A DNA stretch of 47,443 bases. Source: Diacronema lutheri. Its lineage: Eukaryota; Haptophyta; Pavlovophyceae; Pavlovales; Pavlovaceae. Both the position numbers and the translations under genes were made by a program. Location of the stretch: contig JAGTXO010000095.1 of NCBI GenBank assembly GCA_019448385.1, forward strand, positions 1 to 47,443, given 5' to 3'. The notes under the pieces were generated by a model. That model did no database searches. It worked only from the letters and a program-made list of their open reading frames with translations, and was not told the origin of the DNA. Shown here one piece after another: positions 21,920-47,443 of this stretch; the stretch's first letter is position 1; each line of letters begins with the position of its first letter.

Positions 21920-21949
21920 GCCCGGGGCCGGCGGACTTTTGTGCGAACG
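21920..21949. promoter_or_regulatory. 30-bp gap between divergent starts
   Basis: Only 30 bp separate the start codons of the lipoyl protein (-) and the FAD oxidoreductase (+), so both must share promoter elements that overlap the 5' ends of one or both genes. No core motif was recognised. Confidence 0.45.
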
Positions 21950-25003: not shown

Positions 25004-25441
25004 TAACTCTCAAAAACGACATTGCCAAGTATCAAGGTATAGATGGTCAAGCCAAATCCGATCAGGGGCACGATCGCGCCCCGAGTGCAGCGCGGGCCGT
25101 TCGGAAGGACGTCCTTGTGAGGGAGCTCTTCGCGTTTGGCGAGCGGGGGAGCACGACGCGCAGCGTTGCTGCGGCGGCGTGCGGGCGGCGAGCAGCGGTC
25201 GGGCTGCTCGCGACGAGGCCGGAGCAGACGGCGCCGTGGCCGCCGGCGCAGGTGACGCGCGCCGACGAGCCGTAGCGAGCGTCCGTGATCCGCACGGCGG
25301 TTGGAGCGGGCCGGCTGGTGCGGCGCGCTCGGCCACGGGTGGCGGCGTGCACGGTCGTGCCGCGCGCGGCACGCGTCGCCAGCCGCGCGCGACCTGGGCA
25401 GAGCCCGCAAAGCGTCGACCGCTGCGCGGCTCGGCCGTGCG
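25004..25441 (-). other. 3' region of the Fanzor gene, possible guide-RNA/right-end region
   Basis: 438 bp downstream of the Fanzor stop. GC declines toward 25,003, and the last 80 bp contain CTCAAAAACGAC, CCAAGTATCA and AAGCCAAATCCGATCAGGG. TnpB and Fanzor guide RNAs are usually encoded at this position, overlapping the 3' end of the gene and the element terminus, so this is where to look for one. No specific RNA structure is claimed. A minus-strand frame here ends GFGLTIYTLILGNVVFES but shows no domain. Confidence 0.35.
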
Positions 25442-28180
25442 TCAACGCCGGCCGCGCTTCGGCCCGCGCGCGCTGCCGCCGCCGGCACTGGCGCTGGCAG
25501 CTCCGCGGGCGGGGGTGCGGGCGCGAGAGCCGCCGCCGCCACCGCCGCCGCGCCCGCCGCCGTCGTCGCCACCGCCGTCGCCGCCGCCGCCTCCCCCGCC
25601 GTCATCGTCGTCGTCGCCGCCGCCGCCTCCGTCGCCGTCGCCGTCGCCGTCGCCCTCGCCGCCGCCGCCGTCGCCGCTGCCATCGTCGTCGTCGTCGTCG
25701 TCGCCCTCGTCGTCGCCCTCGTCGTCGCCGTCGCACTCGTCGTCGCAGTCGTCGCCCTCGCCGTGCACCATGCGCTCCTCACGCTCCCACACCTCGCCGC
25801 GCGCCCACCAGGCGAGCACGAGGGCAAAGCGCTCAGGCGTCGACGTGGTGTCGCGCCCGGCCGCGTGCGCCGCCATGTCGTGCACGTCGTAGAAGATGTT
25901 GCGCGCGGCGTTGTAGTCGCGGTGCACGGGCTTCTTGCCGCCGTTGCACGCCGGGCAGATGACGAGCGCGTGCACCGTGCGCGTGCCGCCCTTTGCCACG
26001 GGCAGGCGCGGGTTCTGCGCGAGCTCCGCGCCGCAGCGCTGCAGCCTGCCGCCCTTGGCGAGCCGCGGCATCGAGCAGTGCATCGACGTGTACGGCTCGG
26101 GCACGAAGACGGCCGCGACGCCGCGCCGCCGCAGCTCGCGCAGCAGCCCCACCTGGAAGGCGGGCGGCGCGCCCTTGGGCTGCGCGCCCTTGTGGTCGCG
26201 CAGCCACTTGCCCACGCACACGAGCAGCCGGTCGCGCGTCACGCCGTCGACACAGTGCGCCGCGATGAGCGCCTCGGCGACGCGCGCCGCGTTGGACCGC
26301 CCGCCGCTGTCGCGCCGCCAGCGCTCCTTCCGGCGCGCCGGCGCGTCGTACACGTGCTCGGCGGCGCGCTCGCGCACCCGCGCGCTCTCGCGGTGGAAGG
26401 CGTGGAACTCGCCCTCGCCGAGCACCTTGGCGCTGTGCGCCTCGCCAAGCCGCGCCTCGTCCGCCTCCACGCTGAACTCCTCGCCGCGCCCGTCCTTGCG
26501 CACGCGCCGCCGCGCCGCGTTGGTCTTGGCCGTCTCGCGCGCAAAGCCCGCGGCGCGCGCGCGCGCGCGCTGCGTGAACTGCCGCCAGACGGCCGCCCGC
26601 CCGACGTGCGCAGAGTAGGTGGTGATGTTGCCCATGTTCGGGTCGGCCGCGACGACGACCGCCGCCTCGACGTCGATCGCCCGCCGCAGCTCGGAGCCGA
26701 GCGCGACGGCGATGCGCCCGTCCGGCCGGCGCCAGCGGTGCAGGACGCCCGAGCCGCCGGCCGGCGCCTGCGCCTTCGGCACGAGGACGGTCCCGACGGC
26801 GTGCACGGCGACGCCATCTGTCACCACCGACTTGACGGGCTGCCGGCCCGGGAGCGGCACGCGCGGCAGCGGCGCGAGGCCAACCCACGAGCGCCGCGCG
26901 TGCCACGGCAGATCGGCCGGCGGCCGCTCGCGCCCGGCGTAGTCGAAGACGCGGTTGGAGATGTCGAAGCGCGTCGCAAAGACCGCGTACCTGACGCGCA
27001 CGTCCGACATCGGCGGGGTGTTGCCGTTTGTGCCTGTCCACTTGATCGGCTCGCCATCGTGGTCGCGCAGGTCCAGCGCCTTGAGCCGCGCGCGCAGCTC
27101 CTTGCGCTCGTCATCCGAAAGCGTCACCCAGATGGCGCTCGCGGCGAGGCGCACGTTGCGCGGCACCTGCGCGCAGCGCGCGGCGCGCGAGCGCGCGGGC
27201 GCGTGACCAACCTGGCCGCGGGGCGGCGCGCACGGCGGCGGCGCGCGCGCTTGGGCGCTCGGCGGCGGCAGCGGCAGCCACGCCTCGCGCGCACATTGTG
27301 CGTGCGCAGCGGCGCCACATTGTACCGCGGCGGCCGTCCGGTCAGCTGCGTGTGGATGTGCGCGAGCCGGCAGAGCAGCGCCTGCCCCTCGGCCACGTGC
27401 TGCAGGGTGCGGATCTGCACGAGGAAGTAGCGCGTCGTGTGCCGGTCGTAGTTCCACCTTTTCGTGGGCGTGCACTTGTAGTCGATCTTGTGGAGGACCA
27501 TGTCGGGCAGGTGGCGGTCGAGCGCGGCGGGGCAGCCGACGCGCGCGCCCTCCACGTCGCCGCGCAGCAGCCGCTCGCACAGCTCGCGCACGCGCGCGTT
27601 TCGCTGCATCTCGGGCAGCGCGACGAGCGCCTCGTCGCGCTCGACTGCCGCGCGGACGACGTCGCGGAGCAGCCCGTTCACGACGCGCGATGGATGCATC
27701 AGGCACGCGGTGGACACCTGCGTCGCGTCCGCCTCGAGGATCTCCGTGAGGCCCACCGCGCAGACGGGCTGGACGCCCTCGGCCATCTCGCCGACGGCGC
27801 GCGCCGTCGCCGCCTTGGTCTGCGCGGCGGCTTGCTCGGCGGGCTTGCCTCGGGGCGCTGCACCGTACGTGCTCTCGTCCTTGTGCCAGCCGATGGCCGA
27901 GAAGATCGCACGGACGGTTCCCTTGTCCATCGTGGTCGACGTGTGCACGCTGGTCGACGGGCCGCCCGACGCCGCGCCGACGGCCTGCGCGCTCGCCACC
28001 GCAGCCTCGTCGCGCACCACCTTGTTGATGACGCGGTACGCCTGTGTCGTGAGCCTGTGCACGGCCGCCGCGATGCGCCGCAGCTCCTTCCGCGCACCGG
28101 GCTGCGCCGTCACCGCCTGCGGCCCCGCGTTGAGCGTCGAGCGCTTGACCACGAAGCCCGGGAGCACGCTGACGCGCGTG
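25442..28180 (-). other. Fanzor (eukaryotic TnpB-like RNA-guided nuclease) domain
   Basis: About 865 residues after splicing. The N-terminal part (VSVLPGFVVKRSTLN, HRLTTQAYRVINKVV, KRWNYDRHTTRYFLVQI) fits the wedge/REC region of Fanzors. RuvC-I is VVVAADPNMGNITTY (Asp codon 26,642-26,644). The second acidic residue is the Glu of VFVPEPYTSMHC (26,096-26,098), next to the zinc ribbon, the alternative position described for Fanzors. The ribbon keeps RLQRCG and CPAC, but the first CxxC is reduced to one Cys (HCSM). RuvC-III is HRDYNAARNI (Asp codon 25,916-25,918). An Asp/Gly-rich tail of about 80 residues ends GPKRGRR, NLS-like. All three acidic residues are present, so cleavage activity is plausible. 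Family known; target and guide unknown. Confidence 0.85.
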
Positions 28181-31100
28181 CGCGCCGTCGCGCCGCCGGC
28201 GGCGCGCGCGCTCGGCGCAGCGGGCTCGTCCACGCGCGCGCGCTCGACGCCGCGCGCGCGGGGAACGCTCGGCGCGCGCGCGCCCGCGGCGTCGCGCGCG
28301 CTCGCGGCGGCACCCGCCGCGGCGCGCTTGCCCGCGGCGCCCGACTCGCCGTGCGCGCGAAGCGGCGCCGACGCCAATGCCGACGCCGCGCCCGCGCCGC
28401 CGCTGCCGCTGCCCGATACGCCCGCGCGCCGCTTCTGCTCGTCGCGCGTCTTGCGGAACTGGGCGACGAGGTCGCTGCTCACGTTGGCCTCAGGCTCCCA
28501 CGTGTCGGCGCTCTCGTCGTAGCCCCACCACCTGATCCGGAACTGGAACGTCACCTTCTTGCCCGCCTTGCGGCGCTCGTCGACGACCGCCTCGACCTCG
28601 TACGTGCGCGCCTCCTCGTCGACGCTCGCGCCCGCCGCGCTCGCGCCCGTGTCCGGCCACCCAGCGACCGTGCCGCCCAGCCTCTCGGCGGCCGCGCGCA
28701 GCTGCCGCTCGCGCTGGGCGGCCGCGGCGCCTCGCGCGACCAGCGCGGGCAGCATGCCCGCGCCGCCCGCGAGGCCGTGCGCGCCGACGCTGGCGGTCAT
28801 CAGCGCGTCGAGGCACGCGAACGTTGCGAGCGCACGCGCGCCATCGTCGCCGCCGCGCGGCTGCGAGCGCACGACGGGCGATGGCCGCGGCTCCCCCTCG
28901 GCCGCGAGCAGCGGCCAGATCGCACTGGCCAGCGCGACGGCATGCGCGCCGACCGCGACGGCCACGTCCGCGTCGAGCGGCGCAAAGTCGTAGCGCACGA
29001 GCGCGGCCGGGCGCGAGTCGTCCGTCGGCCGGTCGGCGACGAGCAGCCCGACCGGGCGCGGCGGCTCGCCGGACGGCGCGGCGACGGGCACGCAGAGGAG
29101 CACGACGAGCAGGCGCGGCGTGCCGCCGAGCAGCGCGCGCGCGGCATCCGCCCCGTCGGCTCCGCCGCGCGCGGCCGCGGCGAGCAGCTCGGCCGCGCGC
29201 GTCGGGCCCAGCGCCGTGCGCGCGTCCTTGCGCGCGCGTGCGCGGGCCGTGTACGCGGCGCAGGCGTCGTCGAGCACCGCCGCGCTGGGCGCGGTGCCAG
29301 TCGTCGCCCACGCGCGCAGCGCGTCGCGCACCCGCGTGACGATCGCCTGGTCGACCGCCGCCTCGCCGGCAGCGTGCGCCGGCGCGCACGCCGGCGGTGC
29401 GGCGGCAGGCGCGAGCGCGGGCGCGCCGTCGGCGCCGTCAACGCCGACGGCGCCGTCGGCGCGCCGCCACGCGAGCTTCGCCTCGATCTGCTGCCGGACG
29501 GCGTGGCAGTGCCGGTCGATGCCGCGCGCGTCGTCGAGCGCGGCCAGCGCGTCCTCAGCGGCGGGACGGCCGCTCGCGTCCGCGACGGCCTGCAGGCAGA
29601 GCAGCGCGGCCGCACGCGCGTTGCACGCGCTCTGCGGCTCGGGCGCGAGCGCGAGCTCGAGCTCGAGCGGCGACGCGCCTCGCGCCGCGGCGATCGCGTC
29701 CATCAGCACGTCCAACCGCTGCACCAGCGCCCTGTGCGCGTCGCGCGGCGCGCCCGTCGACGGCGCGCGCGAGCGCGTCGCCAGGAGCCCGAGCGCGCGC
29801 GCCGGCGCGCCCGCCGGCGTGTGCAGCACGAGCAGCGCCGCGCCCGCCAAGCTCGCGTTGCGCGTGACGAGCGCGAAGATGCGCGTCGCCTCGTGCGCGC
29901 CCACCGACGCCCAGATCGCAGCGCGATCGGCGTCCGTCTGCGCGTCGCACAGGTCGCGCACGTCGTCCGGCGCGAGCAGCGCGCCGCCGCCGGCGGAGCG
30001 CGCGACGATCGCCCGCGCCTCCGCCACGAAGACGGCCTGCGGCAGGTCGGCGTGGCGCGCGTCGACGATGGCGCGCGTCGCGTGCACGCCGAGCTCCACG
30101 CCGCGGTAGAAGGCGCGCGCGTTGGCCGCGCGCGCGTGCGCCGGCCGTCCGTCCGCGTTGCGCCTCGCGCGCGCCTGCTTGCTCGTGCGCGCGAGGCCGT
30201 CGCGTGGCGGTGGCGGCAGCGTGGCGAGGAAGCGCGCGGCGGGCGGCGGCGCGCGCACGCCGCGCTGCCGCCGTGCGATGGCCGCGAGCCGCCGGCCCGC
30301 CGCGCTGCCGCCCGCGCCGACGTGCTGCCGGCGGCCGAGCGCCGCCGGTGGCGGCGGCGGCGGCGGCGCGGCGGCGGGCGGCGGCGCGACGGCGGGCGGC
30401 GGCGCGGCGGCGGGCGGCGGCGCGGCGGTGGGCGGCGGCGCGGCGGCGGGCGGCGGCGCGGCGGCGGGCGGCAGCGGCGGCGGCGCGGCGGCGACGGCAG
30501 CACCAGTCGGCTTGTCCGCCCACGCACCCGAGACTCTGTCCCAGACCTTGCCCCATGGCGCGCGCCCACGCGGCCGCGCGAACTGCCCCGGCTCGAGCGC
30601 CTGGCCGCGCTTGGCGGCGGCGGCGGCGGCAGGGGGCGGGCGGCCGGCGCGCCAGTCGAAGACAGGTGCAACCGTGGCGGCAGGCGCCGAGTGCCGCGCG
30701 TCGGTCACAGAGCGCGTGGTGCGCGCGGCGACCGTGGCACGCCTGGCGGGCGGGCGGTGAGCAGCGCCCGCCGGCGCGCCGGCGGGCGCGGCCGCCTCGA
30801 GCCCGGCGGAGGCGCCGCGCTTGCGCTTGCGCGTGCCGCCGCGCGTGCGCCTGCGCGCGCGCCCGCCGCGCGCCCGTTCGGCCTGCGCGTCGCCAGCCGC
30901 GTCGCCGGCCGCGTCGCCGCGCCGCACGTAGACGACCGCGAACGCCTCCTCGCCGGTCCCGTCGACGCCGCCGCGCGCGCGGCGCAGGACCGACCGCCAC
31001 TGCAGCCGCCGCGCGCGGCCGGGCTCGCACGCAAACCAGCGCCCACCGCGCCTGACGACGGCCACAAAGTCGTCGTCGCGCCGCCCGCGCCGGCGCGTGC

Positions 31101-34100
31101 GCAGCAGCACGCACTGCACGTCGAGCCAGCCCTCGTGCCAGTCGGCCGTGCTGGGGGCGACGCGAATCGACTGCGGGAGCTCGACGCCAAAGCCGGCGAG
31201 GCGCACGATGTGCGCGACGATGACGCTCGAAATGGCGGGGGCGCTCGACGGGTCGCCCGCTGCAGCGAGCACCGCCCCGCCCCAGTGCTCACGCGTGACG
31301 CAATCCGCGTCCTCGACGTGCACGTGCGCCACGCTCGCGCCGAGCTGGTGCAGCAACGCGCAGATGTCGGCGTCGACCGTCCTCTCCTCCTCGGCCGCCT
31401 CGGCCGTGCCGCGGGCGGCGGCGTCGCCTGTCGGCTGCCCGAGGTACGCGATCGCCCGCTCGACGGCCGCGCGCTCCGCACGCGCTGCGCTGTCGATCGC
31501 CGCATTGCCGACGGGCGCGCGCAGCGCCGCGATCGCGTCTTGCAACGCCGTCGCGTCGCCCGTCGCCGCCGCCGCCGTCACCGCCGCCGCGCTCGCGGTG
31601 CCGTGCGCGACGGCGTGCAGCGCGGCGGCGCGCGCGGCGGGGATGCGCCCGTCCAGCGCGAGCACGAGCGGCGGCCCGGCCGGCGTCTGCTGCCGCCGGT
31701 GCCGCCGGCTCGCAGCCGGGTGGTCGGCGCGCGCGCGCTCGAGCCGCGCGCGCCGCTCGACGACGCGCGCCCAGAAGGCCTGCACCCTCGGCTGCGCGAA
31801 TGCAAGCCAGCCGGCGCCGCGCGTCACGACGTGCACGACGATCCGGTCCTCGTGCCTGAGGTACTGCACGTAGAGCGCTTTGCTCACGCCGAGGACGTGC
31901 ATGCCGAGCTGCAGCTGATCGCGGTGCGGCTGCGGCGGCCCGTCCTCGTGCGCCGTGGCGCCCGCCTTGGTGAGCGTCTTCACCTCGACGAGGACCTGCT
32001 CGTTGTTTTCGGGGAGGATGGCGAGCCCGTCCGGCGAGAAGGCGAACGGCGCGCTCTTGTCGTGCGGGTCCGCACGCACCATCGGCAGGTTGCACACGAC
32101 GGTGATGCCGTACGCGGCCGCCAGCTTGCGCAGCGCGACGGCCTCGCCGAGGATGCCCGCGGTCGTCGCCTTGGTCCGCACCTCGCGCCGCCGCCGGTGC
32201 ACGTACTCGTCGGTGAGCGTCTCGTGCGCGACGCCGGCGTTGTCGTTCACGACGTCGCCAACCTTGCTGCCCGTGACCTCCTCCCATCGCTCGTCGTGCC
32301 AGCGCGGGCTGCGCTGCGCGGGCGCGCCCGCGCCGACGGCGTCGAGCACGCGGCGCAGCGCTGTGCCGTCGGGCGCAGCAGGCACGCGCGCGCGGTCCTG
32401 GGCCTCGCGAGCGTCGAGGACGCGGCCCGTAGTGGAATCTTGGGGTAGGTCGAGCTTGCTCGCCTCGCCGTAGCGGCTCTCCAGCTGGCGCGGTGCGTCG
32501 GCAGGGCCGCCGTCCGTGCGCGCACCCGACGCGCCCGCCAGTGCACGCGGCGCAGCGTCCGAGGCGCCCGCCGCGCCCGCGCCGCCGCCAATCGCGCCAG
32601 CGCACGCGCGCGCCGCGACCTGCGGACGGCCAGCCGCAGGGACCTCGTCCGCTCGGCCGGCCGCTGCGTCGGCCGTCCGCTTGGCCACCTCGCGCACGTC
32701 TCCGAGCGCGAGCGTGGCTGGCGCCGTCCAGCTCCCGTTGCGTTTGTCCCAACATTTGAGCAGCCCGCCAAGGAAGGGCGTGCCCGTCGGGCGGTCCTCG
32801 GGCACCTCCGCCAGGATCGCGTCGACGCGCAGCGCGGCCGCCACATCGCAGAACGCGCGCGCGGCGCGCGCCATCCGCTCGGCGCGCGCGCCGCCGTCGT
32901 CCGCCGCGCGGCGGATGGCGTGGCTCACGTGCGCGACGCGGAGCGAGACGACGGCGTGCGCCGGCGCGTCGGCGCCCGTGCCGAGCGTGTGCCGCCGGAT
33001 GGCCAGCTGCCCATCGCCCATGCGCGGCGGCAGCGACGCGCACGCCGCGACGGTCGTCGTGCCGGCCGCGCTGTCGCACAGCCAGCTCGCCTCGCCGCCG
33101 CCCGCAAACTCAAAGGTCGCGAAGCCCTCGCGGCCGAAAAGCGCGACGAAGTGGTCGAGCACCGCCTTGTTGATCGCGCGCGCCGCCGGCCGCGTCGATG
33201 CGCCGCGGGCAGCGCCACCCGCCGCGCCGCGCGCATCGCTGCACGTCGCAGGGCAGGTGCAGCCGGACGCGCGCACGCCGTCCGACCGCGTCCGCGGCAG
33301 CTCGAGCTCGCGCACCTTGGGGCAGAACCAGAGCGGGTTGGACGCCTCGAGGCACAGCACGACGAGCCGCCCGTCCGTGCCGGCCAGCGCGCGCGCGTCG
33401 CGCAGCAGCTCGACGGCGAGCTCGGACGTCGCCGCGTGCACCGCCGGCTCGCCCGTCGCGCGGTCGGGCGGGAAGAGGCCGCCGCCGACGAGCGGGCTGG
33501 GGCAGCGGCCGAGCATCACGAGCAGCGGCGGCGGCGGCGTCTGCGGCGCCTGCTGCCCGACCGCAGCCGCCGTCAGCCCGGCCAGGTCGGAGCTCGTGCG
33601 GAGGGCCTTGAGCGCGACGCGCGAGCCGGTGCCCGCCTGCTCGGAAAACGTGGCGAGCATGGCGCACGTGCTCGCCCTCGCGCCGCACTGCCAGCTGACG
33701 CGCGCGAGGAGGCCTTCCAGCGTGTCGTTTTCGCGCGGCCGCGTGACCGCGTCGAGCGCCGCCGGGCCGAGCTGGAGGCTGCCGGGCGTGACGCACAGCA
33801 CCGCCTCGTGGTAGGCGCGCAGCAGCTCCCTCGGCAGCTGCTCGGCGGGCGTCGCCGCCTGCCCGCCCACCCACCGTGCACCGTGGCCGCCGTCGCCCGC
33901 GCCCGCGAGCCGGACCGCCGGCCCGCCCGTGATCGCCGAGGTCGGTGGCGTGCCGAGCGCGTCGACGAGCGCGCGCACGGGCGCGACACGCCTGCGCGCA
34001 GCGTCCGCGCCGACGGCGAGCGCGGCGATCTGAGCGCCGTCCCATGCGCGCTCCCTCGCGTCGTCCCGCGCGGCCGCCGGCGCGGCGCCCGGCCGCGCGC

Positions 34101-36015
34101 CGGGCGGCACCGCGCACGCCGCCGCGACGACCTCCGCGCGCGCGCCGGCGGCGTCGGGCGCGTGCAGCTGCGCGAGCGCGCCAAAGAGCGCGGCGGCCGA
34201 GCGGTAGCGGCCGTGCGCCGCGACGAGCGCGTAGAGCACGCGCAGCGCGGCCACGCCCGCCTGGTCGGGCGCGTCGCCAGCGATTTGCTCGACCTCCCAC
34301 GTGCGCGTGGGCGGCGGGCTGCCGTCGGCCGGGTCCGGACGCAGCGCCCACGCGCGCTCGACGATCGCGTTGAACACGCCGTGCGCGGCGCCCTCGTCAA
34401 ACTCGGCGGCGCCCGCCGCGTGCGCGCACCACCCGTGCACGCGCGACGTGGGCGCGTCCACGGCGCGCTGCACGACGAGCACCGCCGGCCGGTCGACGCA
34501 GCCGAGGCTCACCGCCGCGTGCTTGCCCTCGAGCAGCGCCGCCGCCGCAGCCTCGACCAAGGCGTCATCAGGCGCGTCGCCGACGACGACGGCACAGCCG
34601 TCGCCGTACTCGGCCTGCATCGCGGCGACGCACGACGCGACAAAGTCGCCGCCCGCGGCCGCCGCGTGTCGCGCCGCCAGCATCCGGCGCGCGATGGCAA
34701 GCCAGACGTACTCGGCCGGCGCGCGCGCGGCGCGCGCGCGAGGCGCGCCGGCCGCGCCGCGTGCGCCCGCGCGTGCGCCTCCAGCGGCCGCAACGGCCGA
34801 GGCGGCTGGAGCGGCGGTGAGCGTGCGCCGCGCGCGCTTCGCCGGCCGCGTGATGGGCGATGCACCCGCCATCGCACCGCCCGCAGCAGCCGGTGCGGCC
34901 GCCACAGCGCCCGCCGCAACGCCACTCGTCACGACGCCCGTGGCGGGCGGCGCGGCGGCGGACGTGGCCGCCTCGACGGGCGTCGCGCAACTACCGCCAG
35001 CGGTCGCGGACGCGCCCGGCGACGCGTCGGCGAGGAGGTGGCGCAGCACGCCGCGCGCGAGCGCGACTCGCACGGCGAGCGTCAGCGCGCGCAGGCGGTC
35101 GGAAGGCGAGGCGTCGCGCTCGGCGTCGGCGGACGTGGCGGCAGCAGGCGGGGCGGCGGGCGGCACGGCGGCGGGCTGGGCGGCCGCCGGCGCAACCTCG
35201 TCGGCCTTGGCCAGCCAGACGAGCCCGGCGACTGCGAGCACGACGCTGTACGCGCCGACATCGTCACCCGCAACGCGCGCCAGCCGGGCGTGGGCGTCGG
35301 CCTCGGACACGGCGACGTGGAAGAGCACGTCGTCGCGGGCAGCTTGCTCGGCAAACTGACGCAGCTGCTTGGCCATCGTCACGCCGGCGACGCACGCCTC
35401 GCCCGCCTCTGCCTCGACCTGCTCGTCCTGGCCGATGGCGGACGCGCCGGCCTCGGCGCCAGCGTCGAGTGTCCGGCGGCGCTCGAGGGCGAAGCCACGC
35501 ACACAGACGCGCTGGAGGCCGCCGAGCGCGCCCGCCTTCTCGTGCAGCGCGCACGACAGCTCGACCACCGAGTCCACGCGCCTCGCGGCGGCGCCCCCCC
35601 GCTCGCCGCGCGTGGCCGCGCGCACGACGAACACCGTGAATTGCGCGCGCTTCGCCGCGCGCGCCGACGCGCACGCGTGCTTCAGGAGCCGGCAAAGCGC
35701 GGGCCTTTGCGCCGCTGCGCCCCGCGTGCACAGCAGCAGTTGGCCGCGCTCGTCGCCCAGCTCCTGCTCGACGGCGGCCTCGAGCGCGTCGTCCGTCAAA
35801 TCGCCGTGCTCCGTCGAGGCGAGCGCGCGCGCAGCCGCGAGCGCCAGCTCGCCTGCGCCCGCGCGCCGCCGGCGGCGCGCACCGGCGGGCGCGTGCGGCG
35901 CCGACGCGTGTGACGACGCCGCCGCGTCCGCGCGCGCACACGCGGCGCGCAACGCCTCACGCGCCGAGGCGGCCGCGCGCGCCCTGGGCGCGAGCTTCAA
36001 GAACGTGCGCGCGGC

Positions 36016-36097
<82 letters not shown>

Positions 36098-39000
36098 TCG
36101 CCCGCGTCGCCGGCCGGCGGCGGCGGTGGCGGCGGTGGCGGCGCGGCCACGGCGGCGGCAGCAGCGGCGGCGGCGGCGGTGGCGGCGGCGGCGGCGCCCA
36201 GCGCGGGCGGCGGCGGCGTGGCGGCGGCGGTGGCGGCGGCGGTGACGCCAGCGGCGGCCTTGGCGCCGCGCGTCTGCGGCGGCGTTTCGGCGCCATCGGG
36301 GCTGCCCCCGCCGCGCACCGCGCTCGTGACCGCGCAGACGCCGCCCGGCGCACGATCGCTGGCCGCGCCGGTCAGCGCGACGCGGAGGCGCTCGCCGACA
36401 GCGTACATGTCCGCCACGCTGAACGTGCGCGGCGCGGACGAGCAGCCCGCCGCGGCGAGCGCGTCGTTGAGCGCGCCCACTATCGCGAGGCCGCACGTCG
36501 CGCCACGCTGCGCCGCCTCGTTGAGCAGCAGCGCGCGGCGCACGCGCGAAATGTCGAGACCCGCCGCGTGCAGCGTGGCAGTTATCGCCTTGGCGAGCAT
36601 GAGCGCCTGCCTGCAGGGCGACGCGAGCGTGTCGACGAGCACCGCGTCGTAGCGATGCTCGCCCGCGCGCGCGACGCGCACAAGGCGCAACGCGGTGAAA
36701 TGGCCGGAGGCGAGCTGCGCGCCGTCGTCACCGCCCGCGCCGCCGCGCTCGTCCGACGGGCTCCACACGCCGATGACAGCCTGCGTTGTCGCCTCGCTGC
36801 GCAGGCGGTGCAGCAGCGCGGCGCGCTCGGCGTCGTCCTGAAACACCGCGGGTTGCGCGGCGAGCGGCACGTGGCAGACATGCCCGCCGCCGGCCTGCCC
36901 GTGCACGCGCAGCACGACCTCGCAGCACGCGTCGACGGTTGAGGCGAGCATGTCGCCGCTGGCGATGCGCTCCACCTCTGCCTGCGGGAGGCCGGCGCTC
37001 GCGGCGGCGGCGGCCAGCCGGCGCGCAGCCGCGTCGCCCGCCCACGCAAGCAGCGCCGAGTTGGCGGGTTGGAGGGGAAGCTCAAGGGCGGCTGGTTCGG
37101 TGGCGGTAGCCTCGTTGGCAACGGGCACGTTGGCGGTGCGCGCGTTGGCGGCGGGCGCGGCGGCGATGGCTGGTGGGGCGGAAGACGCGCCCGCGGCGGC
37201 GGGCGCGGACGCGGCAGCGGCAGCGGCTAGTGGGGCGGGGAAAACGCCGTCGGTGGCAGGCGCGGAGGCGAATGCAGGAGCAACTAGTGGGGCGGGAAAA
37301 TCGGCGGCAGGCGCGAAGGCGGATGCAGCAGCGGCTAGTGCGGCGGGGAAAACACCGTCGGCGGCAGGCGCGAAGGCGGATGCAGGAGCGCCCAGCGGGG
37401 CGCAGAAAACACCGTCGGCGGCAGGCGCGAAGGCGACAGCAGCAGCGGCCAGTGGAGCGGAGGCGCAGGGCCACGCGCGCGCCAGCCGTGCAAGCCCAAG
37501 CCGCGCGCGAGCGACGCACGCGCCGATGGCCGAGGCGGCGGCGCAGGCCACGACGTGGCCTGGCACCGGTGTGGCCAGCCGCTCGCGGGTGTGCACGTCG
37601 AGCCGCGCCCCACGACAAGAGCGGCGGCGCGCTGAACGGAGGCGCGCGACCCCGATCGATCCGCCCGCGCACGCGCGCGCCGGCTCAGTGTGGCCAACGC
37701 GCGCCGCTATGCAAGGCGCGCGCGCGATAACGGCGGCTGTCGGCCGTGGCGTGCGCGTGGCGGCGCCGCGGCGACGGGCGCGGCACACGAGCCGCTCGGG
37801 CGCGCCGCCGCCGCGCGGCACGATGTCGAGCAGCACGGTCACGCCGCGCGCGCGCGCGACCGCCGTGCACGCGAGCCGCACGGGCAGCGGCGGCCCGTCC
37901 GGGCGCGCGAGCGCCGCCACCTCGGCGTCGGTGAGGCTGTGCAGCTCGCGGCGCGCGCGCGCGAACGCGGCGATGTCCGCGCGCAGCTCCGCGTCCGTGC
38001 CGAGCGCGGCACGCGCGTGCACGGGGAGCGACGCGCGCAGCGCGTGGAGCACGCCGCCGCGCGCGCCGCGCGGCGCCGGCGCGCGCTCGCGCTCAGCGCG
38101 CGCGGCGCGCGTGAGCTCGCGCACCGCGCGCGCGAGATTGCGCCGCGCGGCCGCGACGGGAGGGCTAGGTGCGCGCGCGCGCCGGTTGTAGCGCGGCCGC
38201 GCCGAGTCGAGGGGCGGCGGACGCGGTGCGTACGCCGCGGCGCGGCCCGCGCGCCAAAAGGCCGGCGGCGGGCGCAGCTCCGTCGCGTCGACCGCGGCCG
38301 CGAGCGCGCCGAGCGCGGCGTCGCTGTCGCCCGCCGCGTCGGCCGCGTCGACGAGCACGAAGAGCGCGCCGAGCGCGCGCGACGCGGCCGCCTGCGCGGC
38401 GGTGGGGCGGGCGCAGGCAGCGACGCATGCGGCCGCCATGCCGCGCGCCGCGGCGAACGCCGGTGACGTGACGGCCGCGCCGATGGCAACGGCGGCGGCG
38501 GCGACGGTGGAGGCGGCAGCGCCGGCGATGGAGGTGGCAGCGGCGGCGGCGCTTGCCATCGCGCGGCGCGCGAGACGCGAGGCGCCACCGACCGCCGCCG
38601 CCGCAGCGCGCGCTGCGCGCGCGCCGGTGGCGCGCATCGTCGCCGCGCCAGGCGCCGCCGCGCCGACGCCGCCGGCGCCCGCGCCGTCGCCGCTCTCGGC
38701 CGTGCAGGGCTCCGATGGCGAACCCGGCGTGCGCTGGCGCGTGATGCGCGCGCCGAGGCGCGCGCTCCGCGCCGCGCGGCCGGCGACGTCGAGGAAGCGC
38801 CGTGCGCGCGCCGCGCGCAGGCCACGCGCGCGCGGCGGCGCACCGACAGGCGCCGAGCGCCGCGGCGCGCACGCCGGCGCGTCGCTGTCGGGTTGCGCAG
38901 CGCGCGCGCGGGAACTCGGCGCGGCGTGTGCGGGCGGCGGGCGCGCGCCCGCGCGGCGCAGAGGCGCGAGGCGCCGGCCGCAGACGAGGCGTGTGCGCAA

Positions 39001-40617
39001 CCAGGACGGCGAGGGCCGCAGGGCGCCGTCGACGTCGCGCATCGGCGGGCCGCGAGCCCGCCGCGCAGCCGTGCGGCGCGCGCGAGGCGCTCGGCGGCGC
39101 GCGCGCCGCACGGCGCGCGCGGCGGCGCGCACGCCAGCGACGGCTGCGGCCACGCCGCGCGCCAACACGGCCGCGGCGTGCGCCATCGCACCGAGCACGG
39201 CGCGTGGCGCGCCGAGCAAGCGCAGCAAGCGCGACGCCGTCGCGCGCGCCGGCGCACCGTGTGCAGGGGCCTCGCCAGCGCCAGCACCGACGCCGCCATC
39301 GCCGCAGCCGCAGGTGGCGTCGCCGCCGCCGCAGGCGTCGCGACGGACGCCGCCGCCGCCGAAACAACCGCCGCACACGTCGCCGCCGACGTTGCCACCC
39401 CAGCCGCCGTTGCGTGCGCAGGTGGCTGCGGCGCGTGCGTGCGGGAGGCGTGCCGTGCGGCGCGCATCACACGGGCTGCGCGACGCGAGCGACGCCGCCG
39501 GGGTCCCCGCTGCGCCAGGCGCGCCGTGCGCGCCAGCCTCGCCGGCCTCGCCGGCGCGCGGTCGCGCGCTCGCCTCGACGTGGCCGCCTCCGCCGCCATC
39601 GCCGCCGTCGAACCGGGCGGCGGAGGGCTGCCGCTCGAACCGCTCGTCGGCGTCGGCCGCCACCGCCGCCTCGCGCTCCGCCGCCGCGGCGGCCGCACGG
39701 CGCGCGTGGCGGAGCGCGCGGCCGCCGTCCGCTGCGCGGCGTGGCGGCGCGGGCGCGGGCTTCGGCGCGCGCGGCCCCTCGGCGCGCTCGCGGAGCACGG
39801 CGAGCGGCGTGCCCGTGGCGACGCTCGTGCAGACGCGCCGCAAGGCGGCGCTTACGCACGCGTGGACGACGCGCGCCGTCCGCTTGTCGGCGGCGCGCGC
39901 GGCGCGGCGCGCGGCCTTGGCGGCGGCCTTTTTGGCGCGCCTCTGCTCCGCCTGCTCCGACAGCGCGCGCGCCTGGCGCTCGGCTGCGAGCGCGTCCTCG
40001 GGCGAAACGGTCGGCCTCGGCGGCCGCGCGCGCGCGCTGCGACGCTGCGCGCTGCGGCGGTCGGACGGCGGCTGCCGCGGCGGCGAGGACGGCGAGCGCG
40101 AGCTCGGCGTGGGCGACCAATCGCCGCTGACGGTTGCGAGCGGCGCAAACGGGTTGTCGTCCCCGCGACCCGCGGCGTGCGACAGTGCACGCGGCGTCGG
40201 GCGCCGGCCGACCGCTGGCGGGCCCCACTCGGACGGCGGCTCCGAGGGCGAGCGCGCCGTCGGCGCCGCGCGTTGCGCGGCCGGCGGCGCCTCCCGGTCC
40301 AGCGCCGCCTGCTCTCTCGCCGCGGCCTGCTCGTCACCCTCCGGCACGCCACGCGGCGCGAGCACCGCGGTGGCGCAGCGCGTCGCGTTGAGCAACGCCG
40401 CCTCCATCTGCCGCACGCTGGCCTTGGCGCACGCCACACCCTGTCTCGCCCGGCGCAGCGCCTCGTGCGCGCGGCGCACTTCCGCGTCGGCATCTTCGCG
40501 CATGCCAAAGTGCGCCTGTTGCAGCCGCAGGTCCGCAGGGCGCCCCTGCGCGCGAGGGGCACGGGCGCGGCGGCGCGCAGGTGACGGAGCTGGCGCGCCG
40601 TTCTGCGCTGCGCGCAC
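25442..40617 (-). CDS. Giant multidomain protein: Ulp1-like protease, YqaJ nuclease, chromodomain, Fanzor
   Basis: A minus-strand frame open from 40,617 to the splice donor at 27,294 (about 4,440 codons), continuing after a 128-bp GT-AG intron (27,294-27,167) to the stop at 25,442 (about 575 more). The intron joins APLRTHN to VPRNVRLAASAIWVTL in phase 0. Domain order: Ala/Arg-rich N-terminal 1,000 residues with possible membrane-like Ala helices; Ala/Pro repeats (37,180-37,460); Ulp1-like protease (36,960-36,460); poly-Ala; a degenerate protease-like region (34,720-34,200); YqaJ-type nuclease (32,325-31,725); a weak protease-like region (31,390-30,915); Gly/Pro/Ala linker; chromodomain (28,611-28,430); Fanzor (28,180-25,442). 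Because stops are rare at this GC, one polyprotein is not proven: several genes or internal starts are possible. A possible splice (40,678-40,516) could link it to the upstream gene as well. Confidence 0.65.
27167..27294 (-). other. Intron inside the Fanzor coding region
   Basis: GTGCGC donor after AAT (Asn) and GCGCAG acceptor before GTG (Val). Removing these 128 nt restores Fanzor sequence across a change of frame, which is the main evidence for splicing here. There is no poly-C tract, unlike introns of the neighbouring host genes. Confidence 0.65.
28430..28611 (-). other. Chromodomain fused N-terminal to Fanzor
   Basis: About 60 residues: TYEVEAVVDERRKAGKKVTF, then FRIRWWGYDESADTWEPEAN and LVAQFRKTRDEQKRR. 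This is the full chromodomain pattern: a Y-E-V-E start, the aromatic W-W-G-Y strand, D-x-T-W-E-P, and the C-terminal helix. Aromatic-cage residues (the first Tyr, and the Trp and Tyr of WWGY) are present, so methyl-lysine histone binding is plausible. It is separated from the Fanzor start by about 85 low-complexity residues in the same uninterrupted frame. Chromodomains on chromovirus integrases steer insertion into heterochromatin; a similar targeting role is an inference. Confidence 0.85.
30915..31390 (-). other. Possible papain-fold protease-like segment
   Basis: Non-repetitive sequence between the YqaJ domain and the chromodomain: DADICALLHQLGASVAHVHV, TADWHEGWLDVQCVLL, DFVAVVRRGGRWFACEPGR and EEAFAVVYVRRGD. 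The last two blocks have the shape of the His-strand and final strand of Josephin/USP-like proteases, but Asp stands where the catalytic His would be. It may be inactive or unrelated. Assignment is weak. Confidence 0.25.
31725..32325 (-). other. YqaJ-type PD-(D/E)XK exonuclease domain
   Basis: Begins with the family hallmark QRSPRWHDERWEEVTGSKVG, then GILGEAVALRKLAAAYGI (first Glu), FAFSPDGLAIL (Asp of the motif), VLVEVKTL (E-x-K) and HRDQLQLGMHVLG (Gln helix). All expected catalytic positions are present in the right order and spacing, so an active 5'-3' exonuclease of the lambda-exonuclease/YqaJ recombinase class is likely. Such enzymes are common in phages, large DNA viruses and some transposons, where they prepare DNA ends for recombination. 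Confidence 0.8.
34200..34720 (-). other. Degenerate Ulp1-like segment (tentative)
   Basis: Contains AVVVGDAPDDALVEAAAAAL, PAVLVVQRAVDAPTSRVHGW, and TWEVEQIAGDAPDQAGVAAL. The last part resembles the P-x-Q...D-C-G block of C48 proteases but lacks the Cys. It could be a decayed duplicate of the 36.5-kb protease. Low confidence. Confidence 0.2.
36018..36099. repeat. GCG trinucleotide repeat (poly-Ala/poly-Arg)
   Basis: A GGC/GCG triplet run of about 80 bp in the giant frame, encoding about 27 consecutive Ala. It is a likely site of length variation. Confidence 0.85.
36460..36960 (-). other. Ulp1/adenain-like (C48-type) cysteine protease domain
   Basis: Candidate catalytic set in the canonical order: His in SGHFTALRLVR (codon 36,700-36,702), Asp in AVLVDTLAS (36,631-36,633) 23 residues later, then Gln in NEAAQRGATCG and Cys in GATCGLAIVGAL (36,493-36,495) 46 residues after the Asp. 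His-Asp-Gln-Cys order and spacing match Ulp1/adenain peptidases. GGGHVCHVPLAAQPAVFQDD precedes it. Proteases of this fold occur in Polintons and other large eukaryotic elements and could cut the polyprotein. Motif-level evidence only. Confidence 0.5.
37180..37460 (-). repeat. Degenerate Ala/Pro tandem repeat in the giant frame
   Basis: About five imperfect 57-63-bp units encoding FAPAADGVFPAPLAAAA-like sequence. They keep the reading frame and vary at many positions, so this is an old coding repeat, probably a flexible linker ahead of the protease. Confidence 0.7.
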
Positions 40618-43600
40618 GCCAATCGACGGGCGCGCGCGCGGCGGGGCGCGCGCGCGCGCGCGCGCGCGCGCTGCCTACCCAGCCGCCGGCCGGCTCGCGC
40701 GAGCGCGCCAGCTGCTCCGCCGCCTCGGCGTCGAGCACGCGCTGCTGCGCCTCCTCCTCGCCCAGTGCAGCGAGGTGCAGCCGGCGGGCTGCCTTGCGGC
40801 AGTTGCCCTCCGCCTTGCCCACGGCCTTGCGCGCCGCGTCGACGGGGTCGTCGTTGGCTCTGGCGCGCCTGCGCTTGCCCTTGTCGGCGGGCGGCGGCTT
40901 GGCGCGCTGCAGCGTGCCGAGCGCGTCGTCGGCTCCGCGCGCGGCCGCCCGCGGGCGGCGGGCCCCAAAAAGCGCACCGGTCGCCGTGCGCGCCGCGCAA
41001 GCAACGACCAGCGCTGACATGCCGGCGAAGACCGCACCGCCCAGCGCCACGGTTGCCACGATGCGCAGCGTCCCGTGCGCAAGCTGCGCTGCCTCCGCCG
41101 CTTTGGCGGCCTCGCGCGCGCGCGCATCGGCGGCTCTCATCTCGTGCAGCAGCCCGGCCGCGCCGCTCGCGCCGTCGCGGCCGCGCGCGAGCTCGCACAG
41201 CACCGCCGCCGCGCGCCGCGTGGGCTCGCGCGCGAGCAGCTGCGCGCCGCCGTCGGGGCGCAGCTTCTCAACGAACTCGACAAACGTCGCGTCGCGCCAG
41301 AGGGACATGCGGAAGGCCCTGTGCACCGCCCCCTCCTGCTCGCGCATCCGCCGTGCCGCCCGCCTGCCGTCGCGCGCGTGCGCGTGCGCGGCCGCGTCGA
41401 ATCCCGCGACGCCGCGCTGCGCGTCGCGCGCGGCCGACGACGGCGCCGCCGCGCTGCCCGCCAAGGGCGCCGCAGCGGCGACGCGCGCGTGCGGAGCGAC
41501 GGGATCGCCGGCGGCCGGCGGCTCGGCGCGCTGCGGCGTGCCGTTTGCTCCGCGCGCGGCCGTCCCGGGGGAGATGGCCGCGATGGCGCCGCCAGCCGCG
41601 CCGCGCGCCAGCCACGCGCATAGGCTGCCGACGAGCTCGCCGAGACCCCCGACGGTCGCCGCGGCGGCGAGTGCGCCGGGCTTGCCGGCCGACAGCGGCT
41701 CGCGAGCGTCGTCGTCGCAGCCGCCGGCACCCGTCTTGGCGAGTGCGTCGCGCTCGCCCTCGACGCCCGCCACGACCGCCGCCCCTCCGTCGTCCGCCGC
41801 GCCGGCCGCGCGCGCGGCCGGGCGCAGAGGAGGCGTGCCGGTGCAGCCGTCGCCGCTCGTCTTCGCCGTTTCCTCCACTTTGGTCACTTCGTCGCCACCT
41901 GCGCCATCTCCGACGCCGGGGCCCTTGGTCACGCTTGCCGCCATGCGCGCCGTGCCCGCCGGCCAGCCCGCCGACTGCTCGAGCGCGGCGGCGAGCGGCG
42001 CGACGCGCGTCGACTCGGGCGCGCTCTCGTCATCGGGCTCGAGCGCGTTGTGCAGGCGCGCGAGCGCGCGCTCGACGGCCGCGGCGCCACTGCCGGGGGC
42101 GCGGCTCGCCGCGCGCACCGCGCGCCGCCAGGCCGGCGCGAACATGAGCGCCGGCTCGAGCGCCGCGAGCGCGCGCGCCTCGCGCGCGTCGCTCGCGCCG
42201 AGGCGCGGCGGCACGCGCGCGGCTCCGCGCGGCGCGGTGCCTCGGAAGCGTGGGCTCAGCGTGTAGGCGAGGTGCTGCGGCACGCCGCGCGCCTCCGCGC
42301 GCGCGCGTCCGTCCTCGACCTCGCGCCGCGCCTTCGCGATCGCCGGCGTGGCGCGCGCGAGCCAGTCGGGGTCGGCGGGCAGGTGGATCACGACGAGAAT
42401 CGGCGCCCAGTCCAGCCGCGGGTTCTTGTGACGGTCGGGCACGACCCACACGAGCAGCACCGTGCCCTCCGCGCCGCACGCCGCCTCGTAGATCCTGGGC
42501 TGCGAGCGCCAATCGGGCCTGACGCGCAGCGCCCGCGCGTGGTCGATGGCGGCGGCGCGGTCGCCATTGAAGTGAACCGTCGTCACCTCGCCGATGACGG
42601 ACCGGCCGGACCGCCAGCAGAACACCGCGTCCGCCGACCCGCCGGCGATGGCCGCGAGCGATTCGGGCGCGGCGAGCCGCGGCAAGCCCTCGAAGGCGGC
42701 AAAGTCCTCGTGCGCATTGTACACGCCGCCCCAGCCGTCGTGCGCGTACGCGCGCGCGGCCGCTCGTACCGCGCGCGGCTGGTTCTCCACGCCCGACGTC
42801 ATGTGCCATGTCGTCCCCGCGAAGCCGGGCTCGCCCAGCTCGGCCCGCACGACGGCACCGTACCCCGCGCCCTGCGTCGGGGCGGCGAGGTGGTGCATGC
42901 CCGCGCCGGTCACGCCCTCCGTGCGCTGCCGCGTGACGATCGTGCCCGTCGCGTGCGCGAAAAGCGTGTCGACCACGGCGGGCGCGCGCCCGCTGTTCGC
43001 CCGTAGCCGCGCCCTGCCCGCTTTTAGCTGCTCGGGGTCCTTGGCGTCGTACACGCGCGCGTCCGCGTCGCCCTCATCAGGCGCAGTGTAGACGCAGCGG
43101 CGTTCGAGCGGCGCCGAGCCACCGCCGTCCGCCGCCGCCGGCGAGGTTGGCGCCGCGCCCGCCGCCACCGCGCTCGTCGCCGCCGTGCCCGTCGCCACCG
43201 CCGCAGCCGCCGCGCCCGCGGGGTCGTCGTCCCCGTCCTCCGCGCCCTCCCCGTCGTCAGCGGTGGTGGCGTCGCCATCGTCCCCGTCGCCCTCGCCCCC
43301 GCCGAGGCTGCTGAATGGTCGGGGCCCCCACGCCGAGGCGGCGCGCCGCTGCGGCGCACGCGGCGGTGGCGCTCGCGACGGCGGCCTTGGCGCCGCCGCG
43401 CCGCGCGGCCTGGCCGCCGTCGACAGCGCGCGGCCTGCAGCGCCCGTGAGCGCGTCGAGCGCGGCCGTGCGTGCGATGCGGTCGTCGGGCGCGCGCAGCG
43501 CCGCCTCGACGGCCTGCAGCAGCCCGTCGGGCGCGGATCCGCCGACACTGGCATCGCACGCCTCGGCGAGCCGCGCGGCCTCGGCGAGCCGCGCGGCCTC

Positions 43601-44355
43601 GCGGGTGAACGGGCCGAAGCGCCTGGCGCGGTCGCCGAGCAGAGCGCCGATGGCGGCGCGGAGCGTGCGCGCGCGGGTCTCCTCGTACGCGGGCCGTCGT
43701 GAGGCGCGCGAGGCGCGCGTCCAAAGCCTTCTTGATGTCGACAAGGACACTCGCGCGGCGGCCGTAGAGCGTCGATGCGCTCGCCACGACCTCGGCCGCG
43801 ACTGTTGCCGCGGCGAAGCAACACGCGGCCCCACTCTGCGGGGGCGCCTTGAAGGCATCGATGGGCGGCGCTGTTCTGCCGATGCGCTGCGCAAGCTTCT
43901 TGATGAGCACGCCGGCCGCCGTGGCGTACGCCGATTCGCCGTTGCCCAAGGTGCGCGAATCGGCGAGCAGGGCGAGCGCGGCGCCGGGCGGCGCGCCGCG
44001 CTGCGCGGGGCGGCGCGAGGAGCAGGTACGCCGCCGTCCAGTGCACGAGGCCGCTGGACGCGCGGAGGCAGAGCGGTAGCACGACCACGAGCACCTGCCC
44101 AAACCGGTCCGCATCCGCGCATGCTTTGCGCAGGTTGCGCAGCGCCACCTTGAGCGCATGCTGCGAGCACCCCGTGTCGCCCACCCTAACCCTGCTCGTG
44201 CCGAAATCCGCGTAACGCAGCAGGGCGATGAGGCAAGTGGATGGGACCACGTGGGGGTGGGTATCTCCCGGCGACAGAATGGTGCTGAGGGCCAGCGAGA
44301 AACTGTCCGAGCCGCCCCGCCCGCCGGGCAAAGCGTCCTTCACGGAGTCCTCCAT
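40334..44355 (-). CDS. First protein of the element, nuclease-like segment and TM helix; two apparent frameshifts
   Basis: Starts MEDSVKDALPGGRGGSDSFS at 44,355, just inside the left edge. Coding-like sequence then changes frame twice. Frame A runs to about 44,000 (VHWTAAYLLLAPPRAA); frame B to about 43,690 (ALLADSRTLGNGESAYATAA, VLVDIKKALDARLARLTTAR); frame C to the end. Each is a +1 shift: indel, sequencing error or unseen intron. Frame C has an acidic linker, then IAGGSADAVFCWRSGRSVIG followed by EVTT and YEAACGAEGTVLLVWVVP (42,660-42,350), vaguely like a restriction-type D...E-x-T nuclease core. A TM helix (IVATVALGGAVFAGMSALVV, about 41,060) follows, then charged helices. The frame ends at 40,334, but a GT at 40,678 and AG at 40,516 could splice it in phase to the giant frame. 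Function unknown. Confidence 0.5.
40630..40670. repeat. CG dinucleotide repeat
   Basis: An alternating CG run (40,631-40,670, with one GGCGGGG break) within the candidate intron 40,678-40,516. It could form Z-DNA in principle. Confidence 0.7.
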
Positions 44356-44410
44356 CTGCAGACTGTGGGCACGTCAGTGTCCGGATGGCGGCCCGGATGA
44401 TACTTGGGAG
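44356..44410. promoter_or_regulatory. Candidate left end and promoter of the element
   Basis: 55 bp upstream of the first minus-strand start codon. It contains TGATACTTGG (44,398-44,407), the inverted partner of CCAAGTATCA at 25,025-25,034. Composition changes here from coding GC to AT-richer sequence (GAATTTACATGATGCC just beyond). No target-site duplication was identified. Confidence 0.35.
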
Positions 44411-46260
44411 AATTTACATGATGCCCTGGAGAATGCCCCGCTCTCCCACAACCAGGACCCGCCAGCGCGCCGAGCCTACTCGTTTGCCCGCGCCGCCTCT
44501 CTTTGCGCGCCCGAGCGCGGCCTCCGAGCGCGGCCAACGTCCTCCGGGGGCGTGCATCGTGGCTGCTCGGAGGGGCTGCGACGCGGCGAAAGCTCGCTGC
44601 GCGGCCGCAACGTGAGCGCGCGCGCGCGGCCGCGCGCCGGCCTGCGCTGCTCTGCACGGCCGCGCGCCGGCCTGCGCAGCCTCGTCGCGCAGCGTGAGCG
44701 CGAGCGCGCGCGAGGCGAGCTCGGCGGATGGGTGCGCGGCGGCGTTGGCGGCGGGTGCGGCGGCAGGCTGGGCGGCGGGTTTGGACGGAGAGTGTCGGGG
44801 AAGAACGGGGCGCATCCTGGCTGGGAGTTGGACGGCGCCCACCACGCGCTGGCGGATCCTGGTTGCCACCACCACCCCCCCCCCCCCCCCCCGGAGACGA
44901 GGACCAGGGGCATGGCCGACTCGCTGCGCCGCACAGCGCGCGGCGCGCGGCATGCTGCGCGACCTCAAGCACATCCAGCCGCGCTCCGCCCACGCAACGC
45001 GCGCAATGCCGCGTTGCACTGCAGGTGTGCACGTGCGGCTCTCACGCGCACTGTGTTGCACGAACGGCATCACGCCACCGAGCTGCGTCCGGACCACGCG
45101 CCGCGCGCAGGCGACCACACAGGGGCGCGCCGCGCCGCGCGTGCGCGCCCTCGCAACCGTTGCAGCACGCTCTGCCTTGCACTGCGCCGAGCCGCCGCGC
45201 GCTGTGCGCGTGCATGCAGGGCGCACGCGTGCGACGAAGCGCGCGCGCGGCGAGGCGCGCGGGCGGCTCGCTGCGCGGGCGGCAACGCGCCCAGCTGCGC
45301 CCAGGCCAGGCGCGCGCCCGCGAGTGCCACCGGGACGCACTGCCCCCGCCGGGGTCGCCGCGCGCTCTGTGTGTGCGCTCGCGCGCTGCGAGCGCGGCGG
45401 AACGTTCGTGCATGGCGCGAAGAGCGCGGCACCCGAAGACGGCTGCCCCGAGCCCGCGCCGGGTGGCAGCGAGCGGCGGCACCTCCTCGGCGAGCCCGCC
45501 CCGCGCCTTCCCCTCCACGTGGCGTTTTGAGGCAGACGGACACGCGCCCACACTGCGACTGGGCACGCTGCTCGAGGCAGACACGCACCCAACGCGCGCG
45601 CACCACGCGCCCGCGTCGGCGGGCCGGTGTGAACGAGCGAGAGCTCGGTGTCGCCAACGGGGGCACGGGCGCGACTTCGGTCCGCCTCTCGACGGACGCA
45701 GGCGACGCTGCCGGGAACTTCCCCGACGCCTGCACATCCAGGGCTTCGAGGTACAGAGCTGGGCAACAGTGCCGCTCGTCACCGATGAGGCGGCCAAGCT
45801 CGCTATCCTTGCTGCCCTCGGCTCCACCAAACAGCCGGGCGACCCAACGGTTCGTGATCGCCTGGCCGCCAGGTGCGAACCGCGCCCGTGCAAGCGCTTC
45901 ACCCGCATTCTCCGCCCCGCTGCGGACGTCCGCCTGCCGGCCGCGAACACGGCCGGTGCGCGTTGCCGCCTGGCCCAACACGAAAACCCGCCCGCCCCCG
46001 AGGCCGCAGGTCCTACCTGCCCAAGCGCAGCCCAACGGCACGCAGACAGCCCGCCTTGGCAACCGACTCGTGCGCGAGCGCTCCGCCCTCCACAAGAGCC
46101 TGCCCCACGCCACCGCCGACGCGGAGCCAGCGCAGCCGACGCCCCTCCGCGACGCTCGCGCCGCAAGGCGCAAGGGCCCCGGCGAGACGGCGTCAACCAA
46201 GCCCGCCGCTGGCACAGCGCCGGCACCCGGAGCCCACCCCAAGCCCCCGCGCACGCCTCG

Positions 46261-46301
<41 letters not shown>

Positions 46302-47078: not shown

Positions 47079-47295
47079 TTAGCGCACGTGCACGTGCGCG
47101 CCACTGGTCACATTTGAGCGTCCGTGCTCGCCCACAGCGTCGCCATCCACAAGATGCGCGCTGGAGCCATCCAAGCAGGGCTCTGCCTGCTCGGCTTTCC
47201 GCAAGGCAATTTGGGCCGCGGACAGCGGACAGCGGACGGCGTGCGCGTGCGAGGTGCGAAAGGAGGAAGAAGGTAGGGAGAGTTGTGTGTGTGTG

Positions 47296-47330
<35 letters not shown>

Positions 47331-47443
47331 CGGCCGCCGGAGACGAGGACGCACTCACCGCTGTTGGCAATGCGCGCGTCACGGAGACAACTTGGCGGGC
47401 CTCGCACGCAGCTGGGCCGATCGCCGCCGTAGAGATGTCTGCA
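47079..47443 (-). CDS. 3' end of a spliced minus-strand gene, unknown function
   Basis: An exon from the window edge to about 47,360 reads ISTAAIGPAACEARQVVSVT and ends ALPTA at a strong GTGAGT donor. The following intron contains the 29-nt G run at 47,297-47,325, which is poly-C on the coding strand, as in introns elsewhere here. A cag acceptor near 47,190 reopens the frame in phase (AEPCLDGSSAHLVDGDAVGE, then HGRSNVTSGAHVHVR) to a stop at 47,079. No domain recognised; most of the gene lies beyond the window. The splice signals make it moderately credible. Confidence 0.45.

Follow-up and report, generated by a model that had tools for sequence, protein, structure and literature searches.

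Chromoviruses are LTR retrotransposons that carry a chromodomain near the end of their polyprotein, where it is proposed to steer them to silent chromatin. Fanzor1 proteins are encoded in transposable elements, with Helitrons among the known carriers (PMC3627910; PMC10711439; PMC10432273) and Helitron2 of Chlamydomonas as an example (PMC3627910). In the accessible text of these papers, they are described by the signature of Bao and Jurka 2013, D-X(125,275)-[TS][TS]XX-C4 zinc finger-X(5,50)-RD (PMC3627910), and by a DPG at RuvC-I, a RuvC-II Glu in an alternative position and the motif TDG in the WED domain (PMC10711439). For TnpB of IS200/IS605, the available part of PMC10432273 proposes that an RNA-guided cut lets the element copy itself back, and it also discusses a cut-and-copy role of TnpB and Fanzor with single-stranded-DNA transposons. 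The excerpts at hand of PMC6338049 name chromoviruses and cover both Fanzor and the chromodomain, but separately. Within the open-licence literature found, some of it available as partial text, there is no description of a Fanzor paired with a chromodomain, and no paper on a Helitron with YqaJ. The pairing seems, as the original prediction had it, to be an architecture that this literature does not describe.

The window analysed here, a stretch of 47,443 nt from Diacronema lutheri (contig C52 of the 103 contigs and 43,492,796 bases searched), contains such a pairing within a repeated element. The features are:

25037..47443, minus: in-window part of the repeated element, its 3′ end at 25037 and its 5′ part beyond the window
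25037..25441, minus: non-coding 3′ right end (405 nt) that follows the stop at 25442, the place in which a guide RNA would be expected
28164-25442, minus: Fanzor overall, both exons, stop at 25442
25442..27166, minus: exon 2, with the Fanzor C-terminal part, RuvC residues, zinc finger and acidic/Gly-rich tail (TNB match, coding pattern)
25916..25918, minus: RuvC-III Asp (HRDYN), invariant in the alignment
25946..26077, minus: four zinc-finger cysteines, by motif
26096..26098, minus: RuvC-II Glu in PEPYTS, at the alternative (Ealt) position, assigned from its motif rather than from a structure
26642..26644, minus: RuvC-I Asp (ADPN), invariant in four aligned sequences
26813..26821, minus: TDG motif, a putative WED feature
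27167..27294, minus: predicted GT-AG intron of 128 nt, which links the two frames with no stop between them
27295..28164, minus: Fanzor N-terminal half, end of exon 1, its boundary at LPGFVVKRS placed by eye
27295..40674, minus: stop-free frame of exon 1, with coding pattern, start codon not fixed
28165..28449, minus: low-complexity linker of 95 residues between chromodomain and Fanzor
28450..28602, minus: chromodomain (Pfam Chromo E 1.3e-11; PDB chromodomains to 1.4e-10)
31750..32325, minus: RecE-type (YqaJ-like) exonuclease domain in the chromodomain frame (phrog_434, 5.7e-16)
40787..43486, minus: probable continuation of the gene upstream, coding in another frame (coding pattern in 6/6 subwindows)

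The chromodomain had been predicted to be complete, and it is: it scores 44.6 bits against Pfam Chromo (cut-off 25.1 bits; E 1.8e-10 when the long ORF is the query) and aligns in the PDB with CDYL (2dnt, 1.4e-10) and HP1 (1kna, 1.4e-8). The aromatic residues that had also been claimed are present as Y at 28600-28602, W at 28528-28530 and Y at 28519-28521 (minus), positions which, by analogy with HP1, we take to be the aromatic cage. The domain is a predicted reader of histone marks. The gap to the Fanzor, previously put at about 85 residues, is close to that value and measures 95. The three acidic RuvC residues attributed to the Fanzor were located as D, E and D, together with four Cys and a Pfam TNB match in exon 2 (E 2.4e-6). 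They are invariant in 4/4 aligned sequences, including P0006, which shares 99% identity with the window, and two divergent Fanzor relatives, with 44-50% identity and on contigs too short to reveal a chromodomain, keep the catalytic residues. The protein fits the Bao and Jurka motif (spacing 184, T-S-M-H-C, four Cys, 8 residues to RD) and shares with Fanzor1 the Glu at the E-x-Y-T-S position and the TDG. It differs from Fanzor1 in its setting, at the C-terminal end of a predicted ~5,000-aa polyprotein whose earlier domains include an exonuclease and a chromodomain, and at RuvC-I, where DPG was sought and the window reads DPN (the two relatives read DTG and DPG). Searching the PDB with exon 2 returned no Fanzor structure and a weak match to Cas12f1 alone (0.26; 0.081 with an alignment). 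The AlphaFold2 model of exon 2, with a mean pLDDT of 41.7, was set aside, and the placement of TDG in a WED domain stays putative. The Fanzor is a predicted RNA-guided DNA cutter.

The original prediction had both domains in the same uninterrupted frame, and this part of it fails. The Fanzor N-terminal half (28164-27295) continues the chromodomain frame, which stops at 27124, and the RuvC half sits in a different frame (ORF 25442-27706, stop at 25442). A single uninterrupted frame is ruled out, the two frames being joined by the predicted intron only. Splicing would join them as PLRTHN/VPRNVRL and give a stop-free frame that extends for 5,034 aa after the nearest stop upstream, with the start not proven. 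The public D. lutheri gene model KFE25_006464 uses the identical junction; its annotation was made with BRAKER2 and RNA-seq (PMC8379373), with reads that may or may not cover this junction. The 128-nt length and both ends of the intron are kept in two subfamily copies, and the called ORFs of the two 44-50% relatives start with MPRF at the same residue as the predicted junction. Codon-position GC is coding-like for the exon-1 frame in 28 of 29 subwindows across 27287-40336, the exception being 37187-37636, and for the exon-2 frame in all four across 25487-27286, so that the pattern switches frame at the predicted intron. The gene is probably longer, because the coding pattern continues upstream in another frame, in all six subwindows of 40787-43486; this stretch has no Pfam match, and we infer a second intron near 40.3-40.8 kb. 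Pfam YqaJ scores the exonuclease domain at 19.7 bits, below its cut-off of 22. Ulp1-like motifs spotted by eye in the polyprotein had no Pfam support and were dropped.

Because the window is GC-rich (68-90%) and holds 138 ORFs of at least 150 aa, a long ORF is no evidence of a gene here. That the arrangement is more than chance is shown by the domain E-values, by the codon-position GC and by a spacing that stays fixed in many copies. The splice junction, the codon pattern and recurrence across the genome all support one predicted protein in which a Fanzor follows a chromodomain. The earlier reading of the architecture stands as to this order within one predicted protein; it missed the frame break and its intron, the larger polyprotein with the exonuclease and the multicopy element. 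The public model itself (G000:C69:1672449-1675608) has two element exons fused to a SAM-domain gene ~2 kb downstream and is probably an annotation chimera; its protein pieces map at 98-99% to C69. Outside the element, the window holds ordinary genes, with a PIP5K domain (1.5e-18) at 2413-5661 (+) and the start of a FAD-dependent oxidoreductase (5.6e-9) at 21239-22420 (+), and the 4 kb of 9001-13000 have a GC content of 87-90%, higher than elsewhere in the window.

Stretches of copies on C9, C71, C30, C1, C3 and C82, and in the opening 10 kb of both C5 and C6, are 97.4-99.9% identical to the window. In all eight fetched copies that reach that point, the match to the window breaks at 25034-25038, and beyond it the window and the five copies that continue each have different DNA (6 in all). 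On C9 the copy spans about 2907800-2938842, with its 5′ end ~9 kb past the reach of the window. Exact element ends occur in the 43.5 Mb 203 times for the 3′ end and 186 times for the 5′ end. Among the ends listed (100 each), 65/100 3′ ends have a 5′ partner that is also listed, at lengths of 12.7-32.5 kb that cluster near 31.0, 29.2, 26.2 and 21.5 kb. The element is up to 31 kb long and is present in about 200 copies in the D. lutheri genome; if the mean of 28.1 kb is applied to all 203, it occupies an estimated ~5.7 Mb, or 13% of the genome. Contigs C1, C5, C6, C10 and C12 start, and C3 and C32 end, within a few bases of the element 3′ end, and C32 and C49 start at the element 5′ end. These contig edges are probably an assembly effect of long repeats, and may reflect a terminal location of the element.

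The 5′ part of the element, outside the window, encodes a Pif1 helicase (Pfam PIF1 7.2e-25) that is nearest in the PDB to Helraiser (7lcc, 6.7e-26; cellular Pif1 1.1e-6), followed by a UCH domain (4.3e-8). This helicase and the scarcity of target-site duplications recall Helitrons, Helitron2 and Helraiser. The element differs from them in its length of up to 31 kb, in its ends, [C/G]TATATA[C/G]...CTATAC as against the TC...CTRR with subterminal hairpin of Helitrons or the hairpins of Helitron2, and in having no Rep (HUH) domain in Pfam scans of the scanned part of its frames. Genome-wide, Helitron Rep (PF14214) has one match, at C63:35738-36019, and none in the mapped copies. As in chromoviruses, a chromodomain lies near the end of a mobile-element polyprotein; here, however, it adjoins a Fanzor, and Pfam matched no reverse transcriptase or integrase in the scanned part of all frames. 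Of 16 Phage_integrase places, which would mark a tyrosine recombinase, none falls within the end-paired copies of C1, C4, C5, C6, C9 and C30, and one, C69:95472, lies within possible reach of a full-length copy. No known transposase was recognised in the scanned element frames; an unrecognised one is possible, because many but not all frames were scanned. An origin in a known virus was rejected, with no relative found in viral_contigs, and a scan of genome_contigs likewise found none. A near-palindrome of ~875 bases, 89-90% identical to its own reverse complement (L026:3500-4371; L017:8181-9052), lies ~2.0-2.9 kb from the element 5′ end.

At the left junctions, 29 of 30 read [C/G]TATATA[C/G] before GGCGCGG and one reads CTATAGAG. 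The C/G flanks of the TATATA tip are present in every case, with 24 C and 6 G outside and 12 C and 18 G inside (30 junctions; L052-L071 and L028-L046, even numbers), and this tip might be a recombinase crossover site. All 29 right junctions end in CTATAC, the CTAT part of which was fixed by the copy-finding method. Of the 20 readable copies, 19 show no target-site duplication; a direct repeat of 13 nt flanks the copy on C9. The bases flanking the element have no consensus at the junctions examined. A GGGGC...GCCCC hairpin near the element 3′ end folds as RNA; for three stretches in or near the right end, RNA folding is not unusual (z -0.20 to -0.33), and in DNA folding neither element end clearly surpasses shuffled sequence (z -1.42 and -0.08). 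A dispersed repeat, first noticed at element junctions, has 269 places in the genome with at most 2 mismatches. Of 64 listed places on 16 contigs of known length, 9 are outside an element end but no more than 2 kb from it, ~tenfold more than the 0.86 expected from random placement (2000 draws, maximum 6), which ignores gene density, and gene density may explain part of the excess. The test was post hoc, two of the places (C4:40370 and C4:196633) having drawn attention to the repeat; without them the count is 7/62.

Chromodomain and Fanzor also recur together. The best 150 of 260 candidate chromodomain places were scored, and four top ones, unlike the element, were dropped to leave 146; among these listed element-type places, the frame is open for at least 4000 aa in 102. 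For Fanzor, the best 150 of 306 candidates were scored and 114 were taken as element-type, and for at least 90 of these a chromodomain is listed in the same orientation, 2,468-2,563 bases upstream. The window itself belongs to the remaining 24, its own chromodomain not being among the matches listed. The domains recur in the same order, within an element whose ends are sharp. The remaining 36 listed Fanzor matches include some other Fanzor families. One is represented by L048 (G000:C9:377900-383900), in which a 1681-aa frame at 738-5780 (minus) has a TNB match (1.6e-9) and the motifs ESYTSQDC and RDFNAARNI, and no chromodomain by Pfam; about a dozen of the listed Fanzor matches are similar to it. 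Protein searches with exon 1, made among the ~8,000 candidates sharing most words, a sampling that distant relatives could escape, returned KFE25_006464 only (69 residues of the Fanzor end).

Because the chromodomain precedes the Fanzor in one predicted protein, the element would likely aim cutting at silenced chromatin. The reading that we prefer, with a probability of roughly 0.4, is that this ~200-copy element encodes a spliced exonuclease-chromodomain-Fanzor polyprotein in which the chromodomain serves as a tether, keeping the Fanzor at methylated, silent, repeat-rich chromatin, and that cutting promotes copying of the element. The Fanzor would load an RNA produced from the right end of 405 nt, with a guide that reads into the flank, and would cut empty or homologous sites; the linked RecE-type exonuclease would resect the break and the Pif1-type helicase would aid copying. 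A rolling-circle-like route is a guess, made because the helicase is Helitron-like and target-site duplications are mostly absent. That a reader module directs an RNA-guided nuclease to chromatin is plausible from the sequence and agrees with the ends lying near the dispersed repeat. The proposed role is like that of TnpB in IS200/IS605 (PMC10432273, in its available text), with the difference that the element here is eukaryotic and has a chromatin module, and that its guide RNA is putative. Several observations count against the tethered Fanzor: the right end has no conspicuous guide-RNA structure, constraint is weak, RuvC-I reads DPN, KFE25_006464 is chimeric, the repeat was chosen post hoc and a Fanzor family has no chromodomain. 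In its strongest form, the proposal is of a chromatin-aimed, RNA-guided machine that cuts, chews and copies, in which each of the ~200 copies takes its guide from its own flank and which spread over ~1/8 of the genome by break-driven copying without a classical transposase; this full version is decidedly unlikely.

The same domains could serve the element in other ways. The 95-residue low-complexity linker, the UCH-type protease domain and the ends near the dispersed repeat would all fit a polyprotein that is cut into separate proteins. In that case the part with the chromodomain would do no more than guide insertion into silent chromatin, as chromoviruses do, and the Fanzor would act independently. 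UCH enzymes cleave ubiquitin conjugates, however, and the polyprotein has no known processing site and the element no recognised integrase for a chromodomain to steer; we consider such separation somewhat unlikely. Alternatively, both domains might be functionless passengers of an element moved by an unrecognised transposase. Variants among copies have no codon-phase bias (p > 0.05 in 37 of 38 subwindows), as passengers would predict, and in the C46 copy, compared with the window, pN/pS for the Fanzor is near 1 (1.03 in exon 1 and 0.79 in exon 2). The C86 copy gives 0.36 and 0.45, and the chromodomain has no synonymous changes against the window and 1 and 4 non-synonymous changes in the two copies. 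No purifying selection is seen among copies, and it is weak and mixed between subfamilies; constraint within the family is on this account weak or recent. Set against passengers are the chromodomain frames that stay open in most of the places listed and the catalytic residues that are invariant in relatives at 44-50% identity, and we judge this explanation unlikely, a little more so than cleavage into separate proteins.

The near-identity of copies over the fetched stretches would also suit a module that regulates the host or counters silencing, with a chromodomain that holds the protein at silent copies and a nuclease used not for insertion but for repair or for gene conversion between copies. 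The spread of variants is uneven, with 247 of them in 25037-37636 and 38 in the other 10 kb of the element in the window, as local conversion could give, but mixed subfamilies also fit and either may be responsible; we hold this role to be very improbable. The long ORFs in all frames, and the several contigs that start exactly at an element end, could raise the suspicion that the pairing arose through misassembly or from long ORFs that occur by chance where GC is high. That explanation is contradicted by the recurrence of the pairing across the genome, with the same arrangement in copies that have different flanks, and by the domain E-values and codon pattern, and it is hardly credible.

The role that Fanzors play for their transposons is still open, according to the available text of PMC10432273. 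With a Fanzor, a chromodomain and a resecting exonuclease in one predicted protein, it becomes testable whether chromatin state chooses the site of a nuclease and whether an RNA-guided cut serves the copying of an element. For genome editing that takes chromatin into account, the D. lutheri protein would be a model from nature, and the element that encodes it may fill ~1/8 of a compact algal genome.
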